DNA from: Deltaproteobacteria bacterium
GTDB lineage: Bacteria > Myxococcota_A > UBA9160 > SZUA-336
Reading direction: 5' to 3'
Length of the DNA stretch: 33,921 nt
NCBI GenBank assembly: GCA_016875225.1
Contig: VGRW01000038.1
Span: forward strand, 1-33,921
The notes below the pieces were generated by a model. That model did not search any database, was not told the DNA's origin, and saw nothing but the letters and a program-made list of their open reading frames with translations. Shown here one piece after another: positions 15,086 through 24,919 of the stretch. The translations under genes were made by a program, and so were the position numbers. The first letter of the stretch is position 1, and every line of letters begins with the position of its first letter.

Positions 15086-15777
15086 CCGATCTGCCGCAGC
15101 AGAGCCGGCAACGCGCGCAGATCGGAGATCGTGAAATCGGGCCGTAGCTCGCGCGACGCGAACGGAGCACCGCGCTTGCGGATGTACACCGAGCGCACTC
15201 CCGCGGCGCGTGCCGCCGCAACGTCCGTGCGCAGCTTGTCCCCGACGAAGATCGCGCGCTCGACGGGAACGCCCAGCTCTCGCAGGACCGCGAAGATCAT
15301 CGCGGGGTCGGGCTTGCGCCGGCCGAAGTTCGCCGACCATGCCGCGCAGCCGACGTACTGCAGGATTCCAGCGCGCCGCAGGACCCGTGCATGGTGATCG
15401 CCCGGCATGGCGTTGTTCGAGACGACGCCGAGTGCGAAGTCGCGCGCGAGGTCGGCCACGACGACGCGCGCGTGCGCGTAGGGCGCCGGCGCCGCCTGCC
15501 GCTTGAACGCGCGCAGCAGGAGCCCGCGTACGACCGGAGTGCAGTCGGCGAGCACCTCGTCCACGTCGGGCTGTCGGCACTCCCGCTCGAGCGCCCGGTA
15601 GGCGTCGCGCAGTCGCCTGGCGCGCTCGATCACGAACGACTCCGCGTCGGCGACTCCCTGCTCTGCGAGCGCTGCGAGGAAGTCGCGGTCGCGAACCGAG
15701 CGCTCGTAGCTCTGCAGCTCGGGAAGCAGAACGCCCCCCATGTCGAGCAAGACGGCATCGATTCGGTCGGCGCGCAT
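15082..15777 (-). CDS. HAD-superfamily hydrolase
   Basis: A 231-residue HAD-IA-type hydrolase, most likely a small-molecule phosphatase. Motif I is LLDMGGVLL with nucleophile D12; the usual second aspartate is glycine (G14), a variant common among HAD members of the DxGGVL type. Motif II is VVSNN, motif III the lysine of RRKPDPAMIF, and motif IV FVGDKLRTDVAAARAAG. The helical cap lies between motifs I and II. The ATG at 15777 shares one base with the tatC stop (TGATG), so it is the third gene of a tatB-tatC-HAD unit. Substrate unknown; no functional link to Tat export is implied by adjacency alone. Confidence 0.88.
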   Translation of the reverse strand: MRADRIDAVLLDMGGVLLPELQSYERSVRDRDFLAALAEQGVADAESFVIERARRLRDAYRALERECRQPDVDEVLADCTPVVRGLLLRAFKRQAAPAPYAHARVVVADLARDFALGVVSNNAMPGDHHARVLRRAGILQYVGCAAWSANFGRRKPDPAMIFAVLRELGVPVERAIFVGDKLRTDVAAARAAGVRSVYIRKRGAPFASRELRPDFTISDLRALPALLRQIG

Positions 15778-16535
15778 CAGGATTCCGGCGTCCCCACCGG
15801 CAGAAGCTGCGCCTTGGGCTTGCGCACGAGCAGGCGCGAAACCCAGATCGACATCTCGTAGAGCAGGCAGAGCGGCACCGCGAGCATGATCTGGCTCGTC
15901 GCATCGGGCGGGGTCAGGATCGCGGCGGCGACGAACGCGACCAGGATCGCGTACTTCCGGTTCGAGGCGAGCTGCTTGGGCGTGACCACTCCGGCGAGCG
16001 CGAGCGCGACGAGCACGATCGGAAGCTGGAACGAAACTCCGAACGCCAGATACATGCTCGCGACCGAGCTGAACACGGCCTGGGTCGTCCAGCTCGTGTG
16101 CACGTAGTCGGCTTCGAGCGAGACGAAGTACTGGAAGATGATCGGAAGCGCGAAGAAGTAGCTGAACGCACAGCCGATCGCGAAGAGCGAGCTGGTCGAG
16201 AGCACGAACGGAAGTGCGAGCCGCCGCTCGCTCGCGTACAGCCCCGGCGCCACGAACGCCCAGAGCTGCCAGAGCGTGATCGGCATCGCGAGCACGAAAC
16301 CGGTCAGCAGGATCGTCTTCAGGTAGGTCATGAAGAGCTCGCTCGGAGCGACCGCGATCAGTGTATGGCCGGAGTCGCGAACGGCATCGATCGCGGGCGC
16401 CATCAGGATCTCGAACAGCTCCTTGGGCCAGAAGCTCGCCGCGAGCGAGGTGATCGCCCAGGCGCCGATGATCCAGAACAGCCGGCGCCGCAGCTCCGCG
16501 AGGTGCTCGAGGATGGGGCGCGGCTCGTCAGTCAT
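15777..16535 (-). CDS. tatC: Twin-arginine translocase subunit TatC
   Basis: Multi-spanning inner-membrane receptor of the Tat pathway, which recognises twin-arginine signal peptides of folded proteins. The 252 residues form six hydrophobic segments. Conserved features are the cytoplasmic HLAELRRRL with E14, [10 protein letters not shown] with its conserved glutamate, and [22 protein letters not shown] before the last helices. Its start overlaps the 3' end of tatB by 8 bp, so tatB-tatC are coupled. The C-terminal tail after the sixth helix is short and basic. No TatA or other Tat component is in this window apart from the adjacent tatB. Confidence 0.97.
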
Positions 16536-16803
16536 CGGCGCGCGGTCGTGGCGCGACTTCGGGCTCGGGCGCGCTCTTGGAATCCGCCGCGCTCTTGGAA
16601 TCCGCGGCGCGCTTCGGCGGCGGTGCCGCGGGCGGCTCGTCGACCGATGCCGAGAGCGTGCGCGTGAATTCGTTCGATGCGCGGCGGAACTCCGCCATCC
16701 CGCGCCCTAGCGAGCGCGCCATCTCGGGCAGACGCTTGGGGCCGAGCACGAGCAGCGCGACGACCAGGATCACCAGCAGCTCAGGCATGCCGATGCCGAA
16801 CAC
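16528..16803 (-). CDS. tatB: Tat translocase subunit TatB (TatA/B family)
   Basis: A 91-residue single-span protein of the TatA/TatB family. [20 protein letters not shown] forms the membrane helix, followed by the hinge [14 protein letters not shown], an amphipathic helix (to about residue 50) and a Pro/Ala/Lys-rich tail. Start MFGIGMPEL resembles TatB (glutamate at residue 8, close to the tatB MFDIGFSEL pattern), and it precedes tatC directly, so TatB is preferred over TatA; in two-gene Tat systems one protein can play both roles. The start is GTG at 16803 with GGGAGG a few nt upstream. The tail contains a tandem ADSKSA duplication caused by an 18-bp DNA repeat. Confidence 0.9.
16571..16606 (-). 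repeat. 18-bp tandem duplication within tatB
   Basis: Two adjacent 18-bp copies (16571-16588 and 16589-16606) differ only at the last base. They are in frame and repeat the peptide ADSKSA in the disordered TatB tail. The near identity suggests a recent slippage event that could vary between strains. Confidence 0.85.
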
Positions 16804-16885
16804 ACGTTCCTCCCAGGACTCCTGGCACTCGACACTACGCGGGACGGAGTCGTTCCGAAGGGTAGCGCGAACGCTCGATGCGGGG

Positions 16886-16950
16886 TGCTGCCCCGCGGAA
16901 TCTCGGATCCTCCACCCCCCGATGAAGATCCGGACCGTCGCGGGGCAGCA
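16886..16950. repeat. Long interrupted inverted repeat in the 210-bp gap upstream of tatB
   Basis: The gap 16804-17013 has no supported gene. It contains a perfect 12-bp inverted repeat (16886-16897 with 16939-16950, arms TGCTGCCCCGCG and CGCGGGGCAGCA) enclosing a nested 6-bp pair, CGGATC 16904-16909 with GATCCG 16927-16932. The left arm can instead pair locally (GCGGGG-TGCTG-CCCCGC), so two mutually exclusive folds exist. No T run follows on either strand, which argues against an intrinsic terminator. It lies in the leader or promoter region of tatB on the minus strand. It could be a REP-like element or a leader regulatory structure; function is not established. Confidence 0.5.
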
Positions 16951-17013
16951 GCAACCCGCAGCTGACTTAAATCAGACCCACGCCGCGCATGCAAGTGAAA
17001 TCATCCGGCAAGT

Positions 17014-17535
17014 TCAGTCGGAGCGCGGCGGAAGATCGACCGAGATCACCTCGAGGCGCTCCAGCAGAGCGGACTCGAAGCGGATCAAGCTCTCGCGCTC
17101 GACGTGCATCAGTGGACCGCCGCCGCGGCGCCGGATCAACAGACCGTCGGCGCCCTCGACGAAGTCCACCACCGCGCCTACGTGCTCGACGCCGGTCTCT
17201 GTCCAGAGCGTGATCGAGCGTTCGAGTCTGCGCGCGAGGACGAGCTGGATGCTCGCACCGATACAGCGCCGCAAGAGCGCGAGTGCATGCTGCGGATCTC
17301 GGCATAGCTCGTACGGATCGCCGGAGACGTGGACCCGACCGGCGCGCAGGATTCGGAGCCACCGCCCGACCCCGTACACGGCGGCGACCTCTCCCGGGCG
17401 GCCGAGATAGATGCGGTCCTCGATCTCGGGCGGGCCGCCCCGCTGCGGCGCGTAGCGGACGACGAGCGTCGAAAGCTCGGCGTCGGCGGCCGTCACCACG
17501 GCCGCGAGTTTGCGCGTGAGAGGTCGGAGCGCCAA
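17014..17535 (-). CDS. Conserved-looking protein of unknown function (173 aa)
   Basis: I do not recognise this family. The product is 173 residues, soluble and without signal peptide or membrane segment. The C-terminal third alternates hydrophobic and polar residues with glycines (VGAVVDFVEGADGLLIRRR, then PLMHVERESLIRFES), suggesting a small beta-barrel, and the middle is helical and rich in Arg/Leu. It starts at a TTG at 17535 preceded by GGAAGG 2 nt upstream; a TAGCGT hexamer at 17544-17549 (minus strand) is a possible internal promoter. The gene lies 24 bp after the 630-aa pseudo-signalling protein, so the two are probably co-transcribed and may work together. Coding status is supported by the operon position and a full-length frame. 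Confidence 0.7.
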   Translation of the reverse strand: MALRPLTRKLAAVVTAADAELSTLVVRYAPQRGGPPEIEDRIYLGRPGEVAAVYGVGRWLRILRAGRVHVSGDPYELCRDPQHALALLRRCIGASIQLVLARRLERSITLWTETGVEHVGAVVDFVEGADGLLIRRRGGGPLMHVERESLIRFESALLERLEVISVDLPPRSD

Positions 17536-17559
17536 GCCTTCCGACGCTAGCGGAGCGCG

Positions 17560-19452
17560 TCAGCCCGGCAACTGGACCAGGATGACGTTGTCCTGCGCGC
17601 CGCTCGCGTCGATCGCGAAGCTGCCCCCCGCTCGCTCGAAGAGGTCTCGCGCGATCACCACTTCGAGGAACTCGCCGTCCGGCTCGCCCGACGGCCCGGT
17701 CAGCACCTCCTCCGGACTGTGGAAGCGAAGCAGGATGCGGTGACCCGCCGCACTTCCCTCTCCCTTCGGTCGCCAGGCGCTGCCGAGATACAGGTCTCCA
17801 CCTTGGGGAACGAGGCGCAGCGCCAGGTCGAGAAGCGAGCGGATCGCGAGCCGCACGTGGCTCTCGTCGGCGACGAGCGCAGGCGCCTGGGCGTCGAGCT
17901 CGCGGAGCACGACCAGTGACTTCGATCGCGCCGCGCTCTGACGCGCGTCGAGCTCCGCGCCCAACGCCGCGGCGAGATCGAAAGGCCGCGGCTCTGCCGG
18001 GCCGAGCCGGGCGAACCGCTCGACGCGCTGCAGCGTCTCCTCGAGCCCGCCCAGATCGTGTTCCACCAGAGCCCGCAGCTCGCGCCGGACGTGTTCGTCA
18101 TCGGGTCGCTGTTCGACGAGGTTCGCGTAGGTTCGGAAGGCCCGAAGCGGCGCGCGAATCGATTGCGCGAGCGGGATCACGAGCTGGCGCGGCGAGAGTC
18201 CGGCAGATGCCGCCGGCACCAGATCCGCTTCGAGCTCGAGCAGATCGGCCGGCTCGAGCTCGTCCTCGCCGAGGCCATTCTCCGCGAGGGTCTCGAGCAT
18301 CAGATCCTCGTCGCTCGACGCCTCGGGCTCGGCCGGAAGCTGCGTCGGCGGCGCCGCTCGAAAACCCCCGCCCCTCGCGATCGGCAGATCCGCCGGGCCG
18401 ATTCGCGGCCCCGACGCGGCTGCGCAGGTCGCGTCGGCCACGAGGTCGAGCTCGCGCAAGTTCCCCGGCCAGGCGTACTCGGCGAGTAGCTCGCGCGCGT
18501 CAGGCTCGAGCGTGAGCTCGCGACCTTGACGCTCGGCGCAGCTTCGAAACGCGGCTTCGATCAGGGCGGCTTCGTCCGTGCGCGCTCGCAGCGGTGGAAG
18601 CTCGACGCGAAGCCAGGCGAGGTCGCGAAGCGATCGCGAGAGGCCGCGGCTGCTCGAGGTGGCGGCGATCCAGCGCAGGGGCTCGAGCGCGAGCGCGCCG
18701 CTCGCGCCGAGCAGATGCGCGAGCTCGTCCTGAAGCGTGGCCCCGGCGCGATCGACGTCTTCCAGGTAGGCGGTCACACGGCGGCTCGCGGTGCGCGTCA
18801 TGACCGCGTTCTCTAGCCCGCCCGATGCCAGCGACCGCAGCGCGAACGGCACGAACGCATCGCGCGCGGGCTCGGCCAGATTGTGCACGTAGCGCGCGAG
18901 CAGTCCGCGGCGTGTCCCGGGCTCGCCGATCAGCAGGATCGGCCGATGGGCGTTGCGCGGATCGACCGCCTGGCGCAGTGCGGGCAGGTCCAGACCCGCG
19001 TAGAGCCGTTCGACCTCTCGCGTCACCCAGAGCTTGCGCGCTCGCTCGCGCAGGCTCTCCGGTCCGTCGTTCGAGCGGAGCAGGTCGCGTGCTCGGGCCT
19101 GCAGATCGTCGGGATCGAACGGAAATACGAGTCGGGCGAGTCGCCGGTCGTCGAAGAGCCGCTCCAGGCGTTCGTCGCCCTCGGACCCGGCGTCGACCGC
19201 TACGTGGAGCACGGGCGCGGCGGCGCGTCGCCGCTGTGGGATCTGACGCACGAAGGAGAGCACCCGCTCGAGCGCGTCATTGCGGCCGGAGTCATCGCCG
19301 ACACCGCAGAGGATCAGCAGGTCCGGAGGTGGAGCGCCCTTGAAGCTCGCGGCCTCGGGCGAGCCGAGCCAGACCTCGCCCAGAGCGTCGACGTGGTGGG
19401 CCAACGTCGAAGCGAGCGCCGACTCTTCGGATACCACCCAGATCGCAGCCAC
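17560..19452 (-). CDS. Pseudo-receiver / degenerate sigma54-type AAA+ / histidine-kinase-like fusion protein
   Basis: A 630-residue fusion resembling response regulator, NtrC-type ATPase and histidine kinase, but with key residues missing. Residues 1-125 resemble a receiver: PDLLILCG has Cys at the phospho-acceptor position and FPFD lacks the usual lysine of KPF. Residues 150-358 resemble the sigma54-activator AAA+ domain: Walker A is GEPGTRRG (Arg for Lys), Walker B AYLEDVD (acid order swapped), GAFTGA is absent, yet WIAATSSS, LPPLRAR and YAWPGNLREL persist. An acidic linker (372-412) follows. Residues 420-630 resemble DHp plus HATPase_c: AQSIRAPLRAF has Gln where His is expected, the N-box lacks Asn (SLLDLALRLVPQGG) and no DxGxG is seen. 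There is no HTH. It is probably a catalytically dead scaffold or sensor. GTG start at 19452 after AAGGCGGGG. Confidence 0.8.
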   Translation of the reverse strand: MAAIWVVSEESALASTLAHHVDALGEVWLGSPEAASFKGAPPPDLLILCGVGDDSGRNDALERVLSFVRQIPQRRRAAAPVLHVAVDAGSEGDERLERLFDDRRLARLVFPFDPDDLQARARDLLRSNDGPESLRERARKLWVTREVERLYAGLDLPALRQAVDPRNAHRPILLIGEPGTRRGLLARYVHNLAEPARDAFVPFALRSLASGGLENAVMTRTASRRVTAYLEDVDRAGATLQDELAHLLGASGALALEPLRWIAATSSSRGLSRSLRDLAWLRVELPPLRARTDEAALIEAAFRSCAERQGRELTLEPDARELLAEYAWPGNLRELDLVADATCAAASGPRIGPADLPIARGGGFRAAPPTQLPAEPEASSDEDLMLETLAENGLGEDELEPADLLELEADLVPAASAGLSPRQLVIPLAQSIRAPLRAFRTYANLVEQRPDDEHVRRELRALVEHDLGGLEETLQRVERFARLGPAEPRPFDLAAALGAELDARQSAARSKSLVVLRELDAQAPALVADESHVRLAIRSLLDLALRLVPQGGDLYLGSAWRPKGEGSAAGHRILLRFHSPEEVLTGPSGEPDGEFLEVVIARDLFERAGGSFAIDASGAQDNVILVQLPG

Positions 19453-19500: not shown

Positions 19501-19520
19501 AGTCTACACCACCCGTGGTG
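19501..19520 (-). promoter_or_regulatory. Candidate promoter -10 with adjoining palindrome, upstream of the fusion gene
   Basis: In the 128-bp divergent gap 19453-19580, the minus strand has TAGACT (plus positions 19501-19506) directly abutting a palindrome CACCAC-CC-GTGGTG (19507-19520). A palindrome between -10 and -35 is a classic operator position, so the 630-aa gene may be repressed or activated there. No convincing -35 was found, and the transcript would have a leader of about 45 nt before the GTG. Confidence 0.35.
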
Positions 19521-19566
19521 AGGCTCCCCCGCCCTCCGGGGCGCCTTTTCGCGCTCCGATCGCGGC

Positions 19567-19572
19567 TATACT
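19567..19572 (+). promoter_or_regulatory. -10 element TATACT for the secreted-protein gene
   Basis: TATACT, close to the sigma70 consensus, ends 8 nt before the ATG at 19581 and no Shine-Dalgarno intervenes. Transcription would start at or within a few nt of the ATG. A -35 is not clear. Confidence 0.5.
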
Positions 19573-19580
19573 GGCCGTCC

Positions 19581-20240
19581 ATGCACACCTTTGGACTCGT
19601 CCTGCTTCTGGGTTGCACGTGGCTTGCGGCGCCCCGCTTCGCACTCGCCGAGGACCTGTCGAATCTCGATCTCGGCGGCGAATGGTATGTGTTGATCCAC
19701 TACAAGGACGCGAAGTCCGAGGACAAGTCGATCACCAAGTTCAAGGACTTCGCCTGGTCGATCCGCCAGCAAGCCGACGCGCTCGAGATCGACGAGTACC
19801 CGTACGTGCTCTTCGACGAGGGCAGCGAGGAGATCCGCCGCGCGAGCATGCGCGGACACAAGCCCTGGCAGCCGGAGGGCCTGGTGCTCGACGAGCTCTC
19901 CAAACACATCGACGTCTCGACCCGCGCGATGCGCTCGAAGCAGCTCGTGGGCAGCACCAAGAGCGGGATGAAGTCGCTGGCGCCAGAAGGGTCGGGCGGC
20001 GCGGGAGCCGTGAGCTTCGTGCGGAACTGGGACGTGACCTGGTCGCCCGATCTGGTGCGCGTGAGCGTCGTGGATTCGCTATCGGGCGGCAGCACGATGC
20101 TGGGTGGAATGGAAGAGGCGGCGGTCTTCGAGATCAAGGAGCGAGCGTCGGCGGACGAGCTTCGAGGATCCTGGAGCGAGGGTGACAAGGCGGGCAGCCT
20201 GCGCATGATTCGTGCGAAGGAGCGCCGGGTGCTGAAGTAG
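19581..20240 (+). CDS. Secreted protein of unknown function
   Basis: A 219-residue protein with a Sec-type signal peptide (MHTFGLVLLLGCTWLAAPRF, predicted cleavage near FALA-ED at residue 23). The mature part begins with a short GGEWYVLIHYKD stretch and ends with RGSWSEGDKAGSLRMIRAKE; this start-and-end pattern of beta-rich, tryptophan-containing segments recalls a lipocalin-like or similar barrel that reports ligand binding, but I cannot assign a family. No lipobox and no internal membrane segment, so periplasmic or outer-membrane-associated. The ATG at 19581 is chosen over an upstream reading (19515) because it begins the signal peptide and lies 8 nt from a good -10. A GNAT gene follows after 11 bp. 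Confidence 0.8.
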   Translation: MHTFGLVLLLGCTWLAAPRFALAEDLSNLDLGGEWYVLIHYKDAKSEDKSITKFKDFAWSIRQQADALEIDEYPYVLFDEGSEEIRRASMRGHKPWQPEGLVLDELSKHIDVSTRAMRSKQLVGSTKSGMKSLAPEGSGGAGAVSFVRNWDVTWSPDLVRVSVVDSLSGGSTMLGGMEEAAVFEIKERASADELRGSWSEGDKAGSLRMIRAKERRVLK

Positions 20241-22073: not shown

Positions 22074-23447
22074 TCAGTCGAGCTCCCGCGCCAGGCTCTC
22101 TCCGGCATCGAGAAGCGCCTCGGACGCGCCAGGGGCGAGCAGGCTCTGCAGCACCTCGTAGTGCCAGTGGGCGCGAGGATGCGACAGGTCCGCCGCGTGC
22201 GGCAGGTAGCGAAGCCAGCCGTTTGCGATTCCGATCACGGCGCCGATCCGAGCGGGACCGATACGATCGCGCCAGTCGAAGCCGACCTGCGTCGTCGGCT
22301 CGAGCGGCAGGCCGAGGAGGACGGCGCGACCGATGCGAAGCACCTGCAATTCCACGTCGAGCTCCCGCCGGTTCATGACGAAAAATGGGGAAGTCTTGTC
22401 GCGGACGTACAGACGAACTTGCGCAATCGCCTCGCGCGCCTCGGCCATCGGAAGTCCGCGCGTCGCGCGGCTTGCGAGGTCCCAGAGCTCGGCGAGCCGC
22501 GGCAGCGACTCGGCCGTCACGCCGAGAAGCTCGGCGATCCGCAGCTTGCGCTGCTCGAGCTCGGCCCGCGCCGCCTCGGGCGAGCGGTCGCCGAGATGAA
22601 TCGCCAGTCGAACCGCTCGGGTTCCCGCCGTCACGCGAGCGTCGTCGATCGGGTCGGGCACGGCGCCGTCGAGACTGGCGAGCACCGCGTCGGCGACCTC
22701 GCGGCCGAGCACGCGAACGGCCTCGGCACCCAGACCGACGCTCTGGCCCGGAATCGCGAGGTCCATCAGGCCGCGCGTGCGCGGGTCCACGTCCGCGTGA
22801 GCGCCGAGCAGGAAGACCGCGATCGCGCCGGTCTCGGCCTCGATCGCGCCGGCCGCTGCGCCGGGCCAGTCGGCGGAGATTTCGAGGCTGTCGTGGCCGC
22901 GGACCGTTCCGTGACAGGAATGGCGGAAGAGGACCGCGATCGGCCGGCCCGAGACCGCGTCGATGCGAAGCACCTCGACGCCTTCGTCGATTGGCGCGTC
23001 CTCGACGCGGCGATTCCTGCCGATCCGGGCTCGCGTGCGCGTCCAGGCGAGCCCGGCGGGCTCGCGTCCATGCCAGGCCTGGATGGCCGCGGCCGCAATG
23101 CCCTCGAGAATCGCCGGCACGTGCGGCGGGGCGGGCCTTCCCGCGAGCAGGTCCGCGAGTCCTGTATCCGGCCCGGAATGAGTGTGAGTGCAGGCGACGA
23201 GGATCCGCGGGACGCCGACCCCCGTCGCGGCCGCGATCCGCTCGCGCACCGAGAGCGCTTGCTCCGGGGCCATCAGGCACAGGTCCGCGGAGACGGCGAT
23301 CAGGCGGTTCGTCCCGCCGTCATCGAGCGCGATCGCCCGGGCGTGCAGCCGGTCTGCGACGGACTGCGCGGTGCCGACCCGGGCGCCGTATCCCATGAGC
23401 GACACGCCGAGCTCCGGCGTCAGGTCCACACGCGCCGCTCCCGCCAA
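22074..23447 (-). CDS. Ceramidase-fold (neutral/alkaline ceramidase family) protein, probably not a ceramidase
   Basis: The 457 residues match the N-terminal domain of the neutral/alkaline non-lysosomal ceramidase family (ARVDLTPELG, SLMGYGAR, HTHSGPD). Zinc-ligand histidines are H88 and H90 in CTHTHSGPD and H179 in RHSCHG. The ceramidase nucleophile serine of GDVSPN is here D221 in ADVDPR, so classical amide hydrolysis by serine is not expected; many environmental members of this domain lack that serine. No signal peptide is seen. Start is uncertain: TTG at 23447 gives the family N-terminus and lies downstream of the CRP-like site, whereas GTG at 23516 would run through it; I prefer TTG. Function is unknown beyond a predicted zinc-dependent hydrolase. 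Confidence 0.8.
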   Translation of the reverse strand: MAGAARVDLTPELGVSLMGYGARVGTAQSVADRLHARAIALDDGGTNRLIAVSADLCLMAPEQALSVRERIAAATGVGVPRILVACTHTHSGPDTGLADLLAGRPAPPHVPAILEGIAAAAIQAWHGREPAGLAWTRTRARIGRNRRVEDAPIDEGVEVLRIDAVSGRPIAVLFRHSCHGTVRGHDSLEISADWPGAAAGAIEAETGAIAVFLLGAHADVDPRTRGLMDLAIPGQSVGLGAEAVRVLGREVADAVLASLDGAVPDPIDDARVTAGTRAVRLAIHLGDRSPEAARAELEQRKLRIAELLGVTAESLPRLAELWDLASRATRGLPMAEAREAIAQVRLYVRDKTSPFFVMNRRELDVELQVLRIGRAVLLGLPLEPTTQVGFDWRDRIGPARIGAVIGIANGWLRYLPHAADLSHPRAHWHYEVLQSLLAPGASEALLDAGESLARELD

Positions 23448-23476
23448 TCTCGCCAGGTTCCTGCTCCGAGTTGCTG

Positions 23477-23497
23477 GTTCGAGCCAAGTGCTCGAAC
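23477..23497. promoter_or_regulatory. Operator-like inverted repeat in the divergent region
   Basis: GTTCGAG (23477-23483) and CTCGAAC (23491-23497) form a perfect 7-bp inverted repeat with a 7-nt spacer, just upstream of the ceramidase-fold gene and 5 bp from the CRP-type site. It could be a regulator-binding site or an RNA hairpin in the short leader. Confidence 0.4.
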
Positions 23498-23501
23498 TGG
23501 T

Positions 23502-23517
23502 TGTGATTCTGGTCACA
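23502..23517. promoter_or_regulatory. CRP-type binding site TGTGA-N6-TCACA
   Basis: TGTGATTCTGGTCACA matches the E. coli CRP half-sites perfectly, in a 135-bp region between divergent genes. Its centre is near 23509.5. A -10-like GATACA/TACAGA near 23539-23546 places a start near 23551, so the site would be centred about 41.5 bp upstream, the class II activator position for the M23 gene. Whether a CRP/FNR-family regulator of this organism uses this consensus is not known from the window. Confidence 0.6.
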
Positions 23518-23581
23518 GTCTCGAATCGGTCGGACTGCGATACAGATACAGGGAGTTCTCGCCCGTTTGCGGAGGCATAGC

Positions 23582-24919
23582 ATGAGGGGTCTTTCGGCGC
23601 TCTTTGCGAGCGGGTTGCTGGTCGCAGCAGCGGCTGTCGCGCCGGTCGCGTCGGCGGATGGCTCCCCATTCCCGATTCTCACCGCCTCGATCGAGCCCGC
23701 ACCCCGCTCCGAGATGTCGACCCGCTACGGCGATCTCTCGGATCTCCTCGCACCCGAGACGGATCGATCGCTCGATCCCGTGCTCGCGAGTGCGACCGAC
23801 TCGACGCTCACGATCGCGACCGGTCGCGTGCCCAAGGGCGGAACGCTGGCCGGCGCGCTGCGCGGCTCCGGTGTGAGCCCGATCCTCGTCGATCAGATTG
23901 CGCGCGGGCTGCGGCCGGTCTTCGACTTCCGCCGCGCGCGCCCGGGCGACTTCTACGCGCTGATCCGCAGCGAAGCTGGAGAGCTGCTCTCGTTCGAGTA
24001 CCAGCGCGGACGCGGAGAGATCTACCGCCTCGATCGCAACCCGAGCGGCGGATTGGTCGCGAAGAAGGAAGTCGCTCCGCTGGAGCGACGCATCCTGCAG
24101 CTCGGCGGCGTCGTCACGGGATCGCTGTTCAACTCGCTGGTCGATCTCGGCGAGCGCGCCGAGCTCGTCCACTCCTTCACCGACATCTTCCTCTGGGACT
24201 TCGACTTCTCGACGCAGACCCGGTCCGGCGACGAGTTCCGCATGGTCTTCGAGAAGTACTTCGACAAGGACGGCTTCGTCCGGTACGGGCGCGTGCTTGC
24301 CGCCGAGTACCGTTCGTCGAAGGCGAAGCGCTCCTACGTCGCGGTCTGGTTCGAGGACGAAACCGGCCGCGGCGACTACTTCTCGCCCGAGGGCAATTCG
24401 GTGCGCCGCTCGTTCCTGAAGGCGCCGGTGAAGTACAGCCGCATCTCTTCTCGCTACAGCAAGGCGCGGCTGCACCCGGTGCTCCACGTACGCCGGCCGC
24501 ACGAAGCCGTGGACTACGCGGCTCCCGTCGGCACGCCGGTCTGGTCGGTGGCCAACGGCAAGGTCGTCCACGTCGGTTGGAGCGGTGGGCTCGGGCGCAC
24601 GGTGAAGGTCAAGCACAGCAATGGCTACATCACCTTCTACGCGCATCTCTCGCGCTTCGCGCAGGGACTGCGCGTCGGCCAGCAGGTCTCGCAGAAGCAG
24701 CTGCTCGGCTACGTCGGCATGACCGGCCTCGCGAGCGGGCCGCATCTAGACTTCCGGATCCAGAAGAACGGCCGCTTCTTCGACCCGCTCGCGGTGAAGT
24801 TCGAGATGGGTGAGCCGGTGCCTTCGCGCTCTCGCGCGCGCTTCAACCAGATCAAGGACATGCGCCTCGCAGAGCTGCAGGCAGCGGAGCTCTCGGCCGG
24901 CCTCGACGCGGCACTCTGA
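23582..24919 (+). CDS. Secreted M23-family peptidoglycan endopeptidase
   Basis: Periplasmic metallopeptidase that cuts peptidoglycan peptides or binds wall. The 445 residues start with a signal peptide (MRGLSALFASGLLVAAAAVA, cleavage near ASA-DG) at an ATG preceded by GGAGG. The middle has an OapA/LysM-like region (RVPKGGTLAGALRGSGVS...RPVFDFRRARPGDFY, about 80-140) and a linker domain. The C-terminal LytM/M23 domain has the zinc ligands H307 and D311 in RPHEAVDYAAPVGTPV; the usual HLH motif is GPHLDF (H388, D390), so the third ligand position is Asp rather than His, a variant I recall from some M23 proteins. The domain ends NGRFFDPLAVKF. Divergent to the ceramidase-fold gene under a CRP-like site. 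Confidence 0.9.
   Translation: MRGLSALFASGLLVAAAAVAPVASADGSPFPILTASIEPAPRSEMSTRYGDLSDLLAPETDRSLDPVLASATDSTLTIATGRVPKGGTLAGALRGSGVSPILVDQIARGLRPVFDFRRARPGDFYALIRSEAGELLSFEYQRGRGEIYRLDRNPSGGLVAKKEVAPLERRILQLGGVVTGSLFNSLVDLGERAELVHSFTDIFLWDFDFSTQTRSGDEFRMVFEKYFDKDGFVRYGRVLAAEYRSSKAKRSYVAVWFEDETGRGDYFSPEGNSVRRSFLKAPVKYSRISSRYSKARLHPVLHVRRPHEAVDYAAPVGTPVWSVANGKVVHVGWSGGLGRTVKVKHSNGYITFYAHLSRFAQGLRVGQQVSQKQLLGYVGMTGLASGPHLDFRIQKNGRFFDPLAVKFEMGEPVPSRSRARFNQIKDMRLAELQAAELSAGLDAAL

Follow-up and report, generated by a model that had tools for sequence, protein, structure and literature searches.

The fusion gene and its locus

The window (the whole stretch of 33,921 nucleotides that was analysed) carries a complete gene encoding a receiver-like, an NtrC-AAA+-like and a DHp-CA segment in one chain (Table 1). 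Across the Myxococcota class to which its relatives belong, the gene order is fusion, c3 NtrC regulator, RR-HD-GYP (c11), PilZ (c10), TatA/B and TatC, with c3 being an intact NtrC regulator (receiver, sigma54 AAA and Fis HTH). The window's own family has the order fusion, c15, TatA/B and TatC: c15 occupies the place of c3 and is found just where this family lost the NtrC regulator gene, and RR-HD-GYP and PilZ are both absent at the equivalent place. The AlphaFold2 (AF2) model of c15 (pLDDT 85) has a beta-rich fold, for which no significant structural match was obtained; c15 matched no Pfam family either. Pfam TatA_B_E matched the L111 relative of the window's TatA/B frame. The true start of the divergent gene is probably at about 19581, and its product is likely related to the c8 proteins of other loci, as judged by eye. 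Further out, at 22074-23669 (-), lies a ceramidase-like (neutral/alkaline) protein (Pfam Ceramidase_alk, E=6e-17), and similar ORFs occur nearby in L111 and L114. Elsewhere in the class, RR-HD-GYP and PilZ stand between the NtrC regulator and the tat genes (L125, 12494-14127, and many other genomes), a block that suggests a cyclic-di-GMP output.

Table 1. Positions of the fusion gene, its domains and the adjoining genes in the window
Feature	Position	Strand	Basis or remark
TatC, end of syntenic block	15777..16535	(-)	Pfam TatC, E=1e-65
TatA/B-type open frame, class-wide syntenic	16531..16971	(-)	Stop-to-stop coordinates; profile from syntenic TatA/B genes
c15, conserved protein of 173-181 aa, directly downstream of the fusion	17014..17559	(-)	Seen in the window's family only
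Fusion gene, complete (pseudo-receiver / pseudo-NtrC-AAA+ / DHp-pseudoCA)	17560..19452	(-)	630 aa, GTG start
Pseudo-CA (HATPase-like), residues 483-630	17563..18006	(-)	AF2, Foldseek; without N, G1 and G2 box
DHp two-helix hairpin, residues 419-482	18007..18198	(-)	AF2 and residue columns
Phospho-His column, Gln430	18163-18165	(-)	Alignment columns; H+4 is Ala
Acidic/proline linker, disordered, residues 359-418	18199..18378	(-)	pLDDT <50 at 364-418
NtrC-like AAA+ core and lid, residues 151-358	18379..19002	(-)	Pfam lid match, AF2, alignment columns
Pseudo-receiver, residues 1-125	19078..19452	(-)	AF2 fold and residue columns
Phospho-acceptor Asp column, Cys49	19306-19308	(-)	Alignment columns
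Divergent putative signal-peptide protein, cluster c25	19515..20240	(+)	Syntenic across the family

The fusion protein was submitted to Pfam, which returned the AAA lid (PF25601, residues 292-357, E=1.7e-11) and a partial Sigma54_activ_2 match (residues 167-251, E=1e-5); receiver, HisKA and HATPase all stayed below threshold, and NCBIfam gave weak, sub-cutoff matches to the CreC and AtoS kinases (residues ~425-557). Above threshold, profile searches thus recovered the AAA lid and part of the sigma54 core. Structure prediction went further: the AF2 model (27 homologues, mean pLDDT 80.5) forms all three folds, with receiver, AAA and DHp-CA ordered and the linker (364-418) disordered. Foldseek matched the N-terminal 400 residues of the model to NtrC1/NtrX/LuxO (E down to 8e-14) and the last ~220 residues to RetS, ZraS and DivL (E about 1e-11). 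The domain order and folds read in the initial annotation are borne out by both, and the receiver-AAA fold and AAA lid of NtrC-type sigma54 activators are predicted to be present. Pfam detected no C-terminal HTH, and in the AF2 model and the Foldseek matches a DHp-CA module occupies that place, which supports the annotation's view of an unusual architecture and a non-DNA-binding pseudo-enzyme.

Substitutions were read per aligned column, against intact receivers and AAA domains of related loci and four intact histidine kinases (HKs). The N-terminal domain is a pseudo-receiver, keeping the receiver fold without the phosphorylation Asp: Cys49 stands in its place, the acidic pair reads S,E and the receiver Lys is Phe. 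In the AAA+ part, the Walker A motif GESGTGKE has become GEPGTRRG (residues 176-183), the GAFTGA loop is deleted and the arginine fingers are absent; the sensor-II motif WPGNLREL (328-335) and the AAA lid are still intact. The phospho-His of the DHp is replaced by Gln430 and the H+4 Asn by Ala; in the CA domain the N-box Asn is Leu, and G1 and G2 are absent. All chemistry losses named earlier (Cys, GEPGTRRG, no GAFTGA, Gln, no N-box Asn) were found again in this way. The protein lacks the GAFTGA loop, Walker A Lys, arginine fingers and HTH of an NtrC-type sigma54 activator, as well as the phospho-accepting His and the N/G1/G2 boxes for ATP of a HisKA histidine kinase. With its DHp-CA fold kept, its catalytic residues gone and its conservation across species, it fits a pseudo-histidine kinase.

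Distribution of the family and two ages of residue loss

Comparison across genomes shows conservation of the family, a division between ancient and recent losses, and a link between DHp chemistry and c3. The fusion gene is single-copy in 81 of the 91 genomes of the Myxococcota class, a few copies being cut by contig ends; full-length homologues throughout the class appeared already in the first search for relatives, and the named relatives are Myxococcota/'Deltaproteobacteria' MAGs. A phylum-wide sample of 89 genomes from other classes yielded no full-length match. More distant relatives (L051, L054, L056, L058 and L072 among them) occur in the phylum containing Syntrophaceae, in 13 of 148 sampled genomes (about 9%), and some of these Syntrophaceae-type members have no receiver. 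A search for plasmid-borne relatives returned just generic sigma54 AAA matches. Two further matches were noted in genomes that also carry a fusion: the DHp-pseudoCA half alone, in a 295-aa frame (G180:C159:98184-98999) that may be a stand-alone version, and another DHp-pseudoCA match, located where a contig ends and with an NtrC-like match after it (G182:C55:1-1777).

Within the window's family, nine of the eleven genomes hold an open, full-length, single copy at the same site beside the tat genes. Since full-length orthologues are free of internal stops, the window ORF is no chance frame or reading error. About 90 columns are invariant across these nine family copies, including much of the RFHSPEE stretch of the pseudo-CA domain, and conservation of CA and AAA matches that in c3-positive relatives. 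A decayed local copy is ruled out by the single-copy full-length orthologues, their constant location and the conserved columns. That the window copy is functionless and simply decaying would fit the loss of its catalytic residues and of its partner gene, but we consider this very unlikely in view of the open copies beside the tat genes, the invariant columns, the undiminished conservation of CA and AAA and the confidently predicted fold.

The residue survey covered 53 nonredundant homologues, every one of which has the GAFTGA column deleted. The receiver Asp column holds G, A, V, P, I or C, with Asp in a single homologue that is without the acidic pair and the Lys. In the pseudo-receivers of L050 (G020) and L066 an Asp stands at or close to the phospho-acceptor position, the acidic pair and Lys being missing. 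Walker A Lys has become Arg in 44 homologues, mostly with GTG retained outside the window copy, and is kept in six. Intact N, G1 and G2 boxes were present in no homologue aligned against the four intact HKs; three of the 53 have the N-box Asn, all without G boxes. The DHp His is present in 43 homologues, and the H+4 Asn likewise (43/53). As the receiver Asp, GAFTGA and the CA nucleotide boxes are missing nearly throughout the family, those losses are fixed and ancient, and the loss of His in the window is a recent decay of one function atop an ancient pseudo-enzyme. The losses named in the initial annotation are not a single event with one meaning but of two ages, the DHp His and Asn being intact in most homologues. 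The annotation's question whether the losses are fixed is answered positively for the receiver Asp, GAFTGA and the CA boxes and negatively for the DHp His and H+4 Asn, which are lost only in c3-less lineages. Its own objection, that homologues with intact His would mark a decayed copy, holds by half: the His is intact in most of them, and the other losses are ancient.

Association of the DHp residues with the c3 regulator

Presence of c3 in the class-wide set was scored by profile and then corrected with tblastn and whole-genome searches; G149 and G150 (an intact and a frameshifted c3) are counted as not c3-less. The DHp His is present in all 56 genomes with c3 and in 3 of the 16 without it (Fisher 8e-12, not corrected for phylogeny; the genomes have shared ancestry, most of them are draft MAGs, and 'c3 absent' rests on paralogue-level best matches). 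Thirteen of the 16 c3-less genomes have lost the His, through at least six independent events, all of them in c3-less genomes: the tree places one loss in the window's family and separate ones in G019, G021, G156, G157 and G038, each without c3. The c3-less genomes that retain it are G001, G158 and G164. G016 is an apparent exception in which c3 was found 15 kb from the fusion, and its His is retained. The H+4 Asn is retained in 56 of 56 readable c3-positive genomes. Six c3-positive genomes have Ala or Asp in place of the H+1 Glu, and several Syntrophaceae-type members have Arg or Lys there.

RR-HD-GYP (c11) was considered as the partner of the DHp and ruled out. In 13 genomes c3 is present and c11 is missing ahead of TatC, and all of them retain the His; G156 has c11 and no c3, and its His is lost. 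The His therefore follows c3, not c11, which ties it to c3. In the window's family the full-length candidates for c11 reach ~36% identity (43-62% within c11), and none is adjacent. No c3 orthologue was found in this family, the best matches having at most about 50% identity to the c3 query vs 58-69% within c3. Relocation of c3 in the window's genome was likewise rejected, as the best matches are paralogue-level and fall outside the c3 branch (modest support, 94/87).

The association extends beyond the two residues. In within-family pairs, DHp identity minus AAA+CA identity is 0.158 when both members have c3, 0.006 when one has it and -0.03 when neither does. In the nine-genome set of family f4, no domain is more conserved than the DHp (0.65); in the window's family its conservation is average (0.50). 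Constraint on the whole DHp relaxes along with the loss of c3. By sequence comparison the link to the c3 NtrC regulator is strong, which makes c3 a candidate specific partner of the pseudo-kinase, absent from the window's family.

Proposed action of the pseudo-kinase on c3, and known relatives

Two-component pseudo-enzymes are common and their logic is poorly known. Our favoured reading, held with moderate confidence, is that the family consists of non-kinase pseudo-HKs that bind and probably dephosphorylate c3, and that the window's family, having lost c3, retains the protein as a scaffold with no phosphorylating activity. The family would then be a third component beside an HK/NtrC two-component pair. 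In a complete member, the four-helix bundle of the DHp would dock the receiver of the neighbour-encoded c3, and its His and H+4 Asn would most likely dephosphorylate c3; the CA domain would be unable to make phospho-His. The pseudo-receiver and the loop-less AAA+ may be kept to serve in allostery or docking, possibly towards the AAA ring of c3. With the CA boxes gone, it is very unlikely that any member is an autokinase. The phosphatase action is suggested by which residues persist. In CrdS (Myxococcus) and other HisKA kinases, the H+1 Glu is needed for kinase and not for phosphatase activity, and the H+4 Thr/Asn for phosphatase and not for kinase activity (PMC3510030), so that an H+4 Asn kept with c3 while the H+1 Glu drifts favours a phosphatase-type DHp acting on c3. 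In the window's family c3 is gone and the DHp His and Asn have decayed; the protein would persist there as a scaffold, with c15 in the place of c3. Without His, Asn and c3, the window protein should do no phosphoryl chemistry, and it may serve in docking or ligand binding, perhaps with c15.

The conserved His is not strictly required for HisKA phosphatase activity (PMC12632262), so its strict retention could equally mean phospho-His chemistry: the DHp His would take a phosphoryl group from another protein and hand it to c3, as in the phosphotransferases Spo0B and ChpT, the CA being dead. The family shares with these proteins the DHp bundle and degenerate CA domain (for the ChpT layout, PMC3433190), and strict His retention with c3 suits such chemistry better than phosphatase action (PMC12632262). 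However, in a relay the His has to be preceded by a phospho-receiver. Nearly all members lack the Asp of the fused receiver, and the cassette has no conserved free receiver. In addition the H+4 Asn, dispensable for HisKA kinase activity (PMC3510030), is kept as strictly as the His. ChpT and Spo0B differ in having no fused receiver or AAA+ and in relaying with an upstream phospho-receiver, which is missing from this cassette. On balance we regard the transfer function as unlikely.

A wider form of control, in which the pseudo-enzyme governs both ends of c3, with DHp-CA dephosphorylating the receiver and the loop-less AAA+ joining the AAA ring as a non-catalytic subunit, we hold to be unlikely. 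Identity correlations, which are exploratory (pairs non-independent, no significance test), fit it, with DHp and CA tracking the c3 receiver and the pseudo-AAA tracking the c3 AAA. If true, the window's family would represent the fate of such a protein after loss of its target.

The family belongs, as a variant, among pseudo-kinases such as DivL and RetS. DivL of Caulobacter, among the best structural matches, likewise reads a response regulator with a DHp-CA module that has no kinase function, and where its partner DivK is lacking this DHp-CA is often lost as well (PMC4211667). However, DivL has PAS sensors and a Tyr at the His site and retains its N and G boxes, whereas the fusion family has a pseudo-receiver and pseudo-NtrC AAA+ before the DHp and has lost the CA boxes. 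The NtrC/AtoC activators, with the same receiver-AAA+ order, AAA lid and WPGNLREL, are the probable source of the N-terminal 360 residues; unlike them, the fusion is without the Asp, GAFTGA, arginine fingers and HTH, and DHp-CA replaces the DNA-binding domain. A narrow search of the open-access literature found no description of the pseudo-NtrC front-end fusion, the three-gene cassette or the repeated partner loss. The family offers a natural experiment, in which the regulator was lost repeatedly and then, in most lineages, the residues that would act on it. The function of a dead kinase becomes testable here: the partner and the residues can be named, and there are matched species that either have or lack this partner.

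Of the solved structures, that of RetS of Pseudomonas comes closest in fold to the C-terminal 220 residues; RetS modulates signalling partly as a transmitter phosphatase (PMC5992135); it differs in being a membrane hybrid kinase that acts on another kinase and has no AAA+ part. By analogy with RetS and GacS, the pseudo-kinase could pair through its DHp helices with an intact HK and damp or redirect it. RetS, one of the best structural matches, acts in this way (PMC5992135), the ChrS pseudokinase forms heterodimers (PMC9491836), and in the Syntrophaceae-type cassette an intact HK lies directly upstream with a near-identical DHp (LAHEIRNPLVAIKTFTQLLPERFDD vs LAHEVKNPLVSIKTFAQLLPERFED). In the Myxococcota class, however, no adjacent HK was found, and the HKs that a limited search returned were all ordinary ones with other DHp sequences; moreover, the loss of His and Asn tracks the regulator, not a kinase. 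HK pairing is thus quite unlikely in our estimate, and action on c3 remains the preferred reading. All Syntrophaceae-type loci with a long enough flank have the intact HK directly upstream of the fusion and a c3-type regulator directly downstream, apparently an undescribed three-protein signalling unit, and the family thereby adds a third, overlooked gene to the HK-NtrC cassette. This arrangement was seen in L058 (3330-10009), L072 (8528-12947) and L335-L344, and in L058 an RR-HD-GYP gene follows the NtrC regulator.
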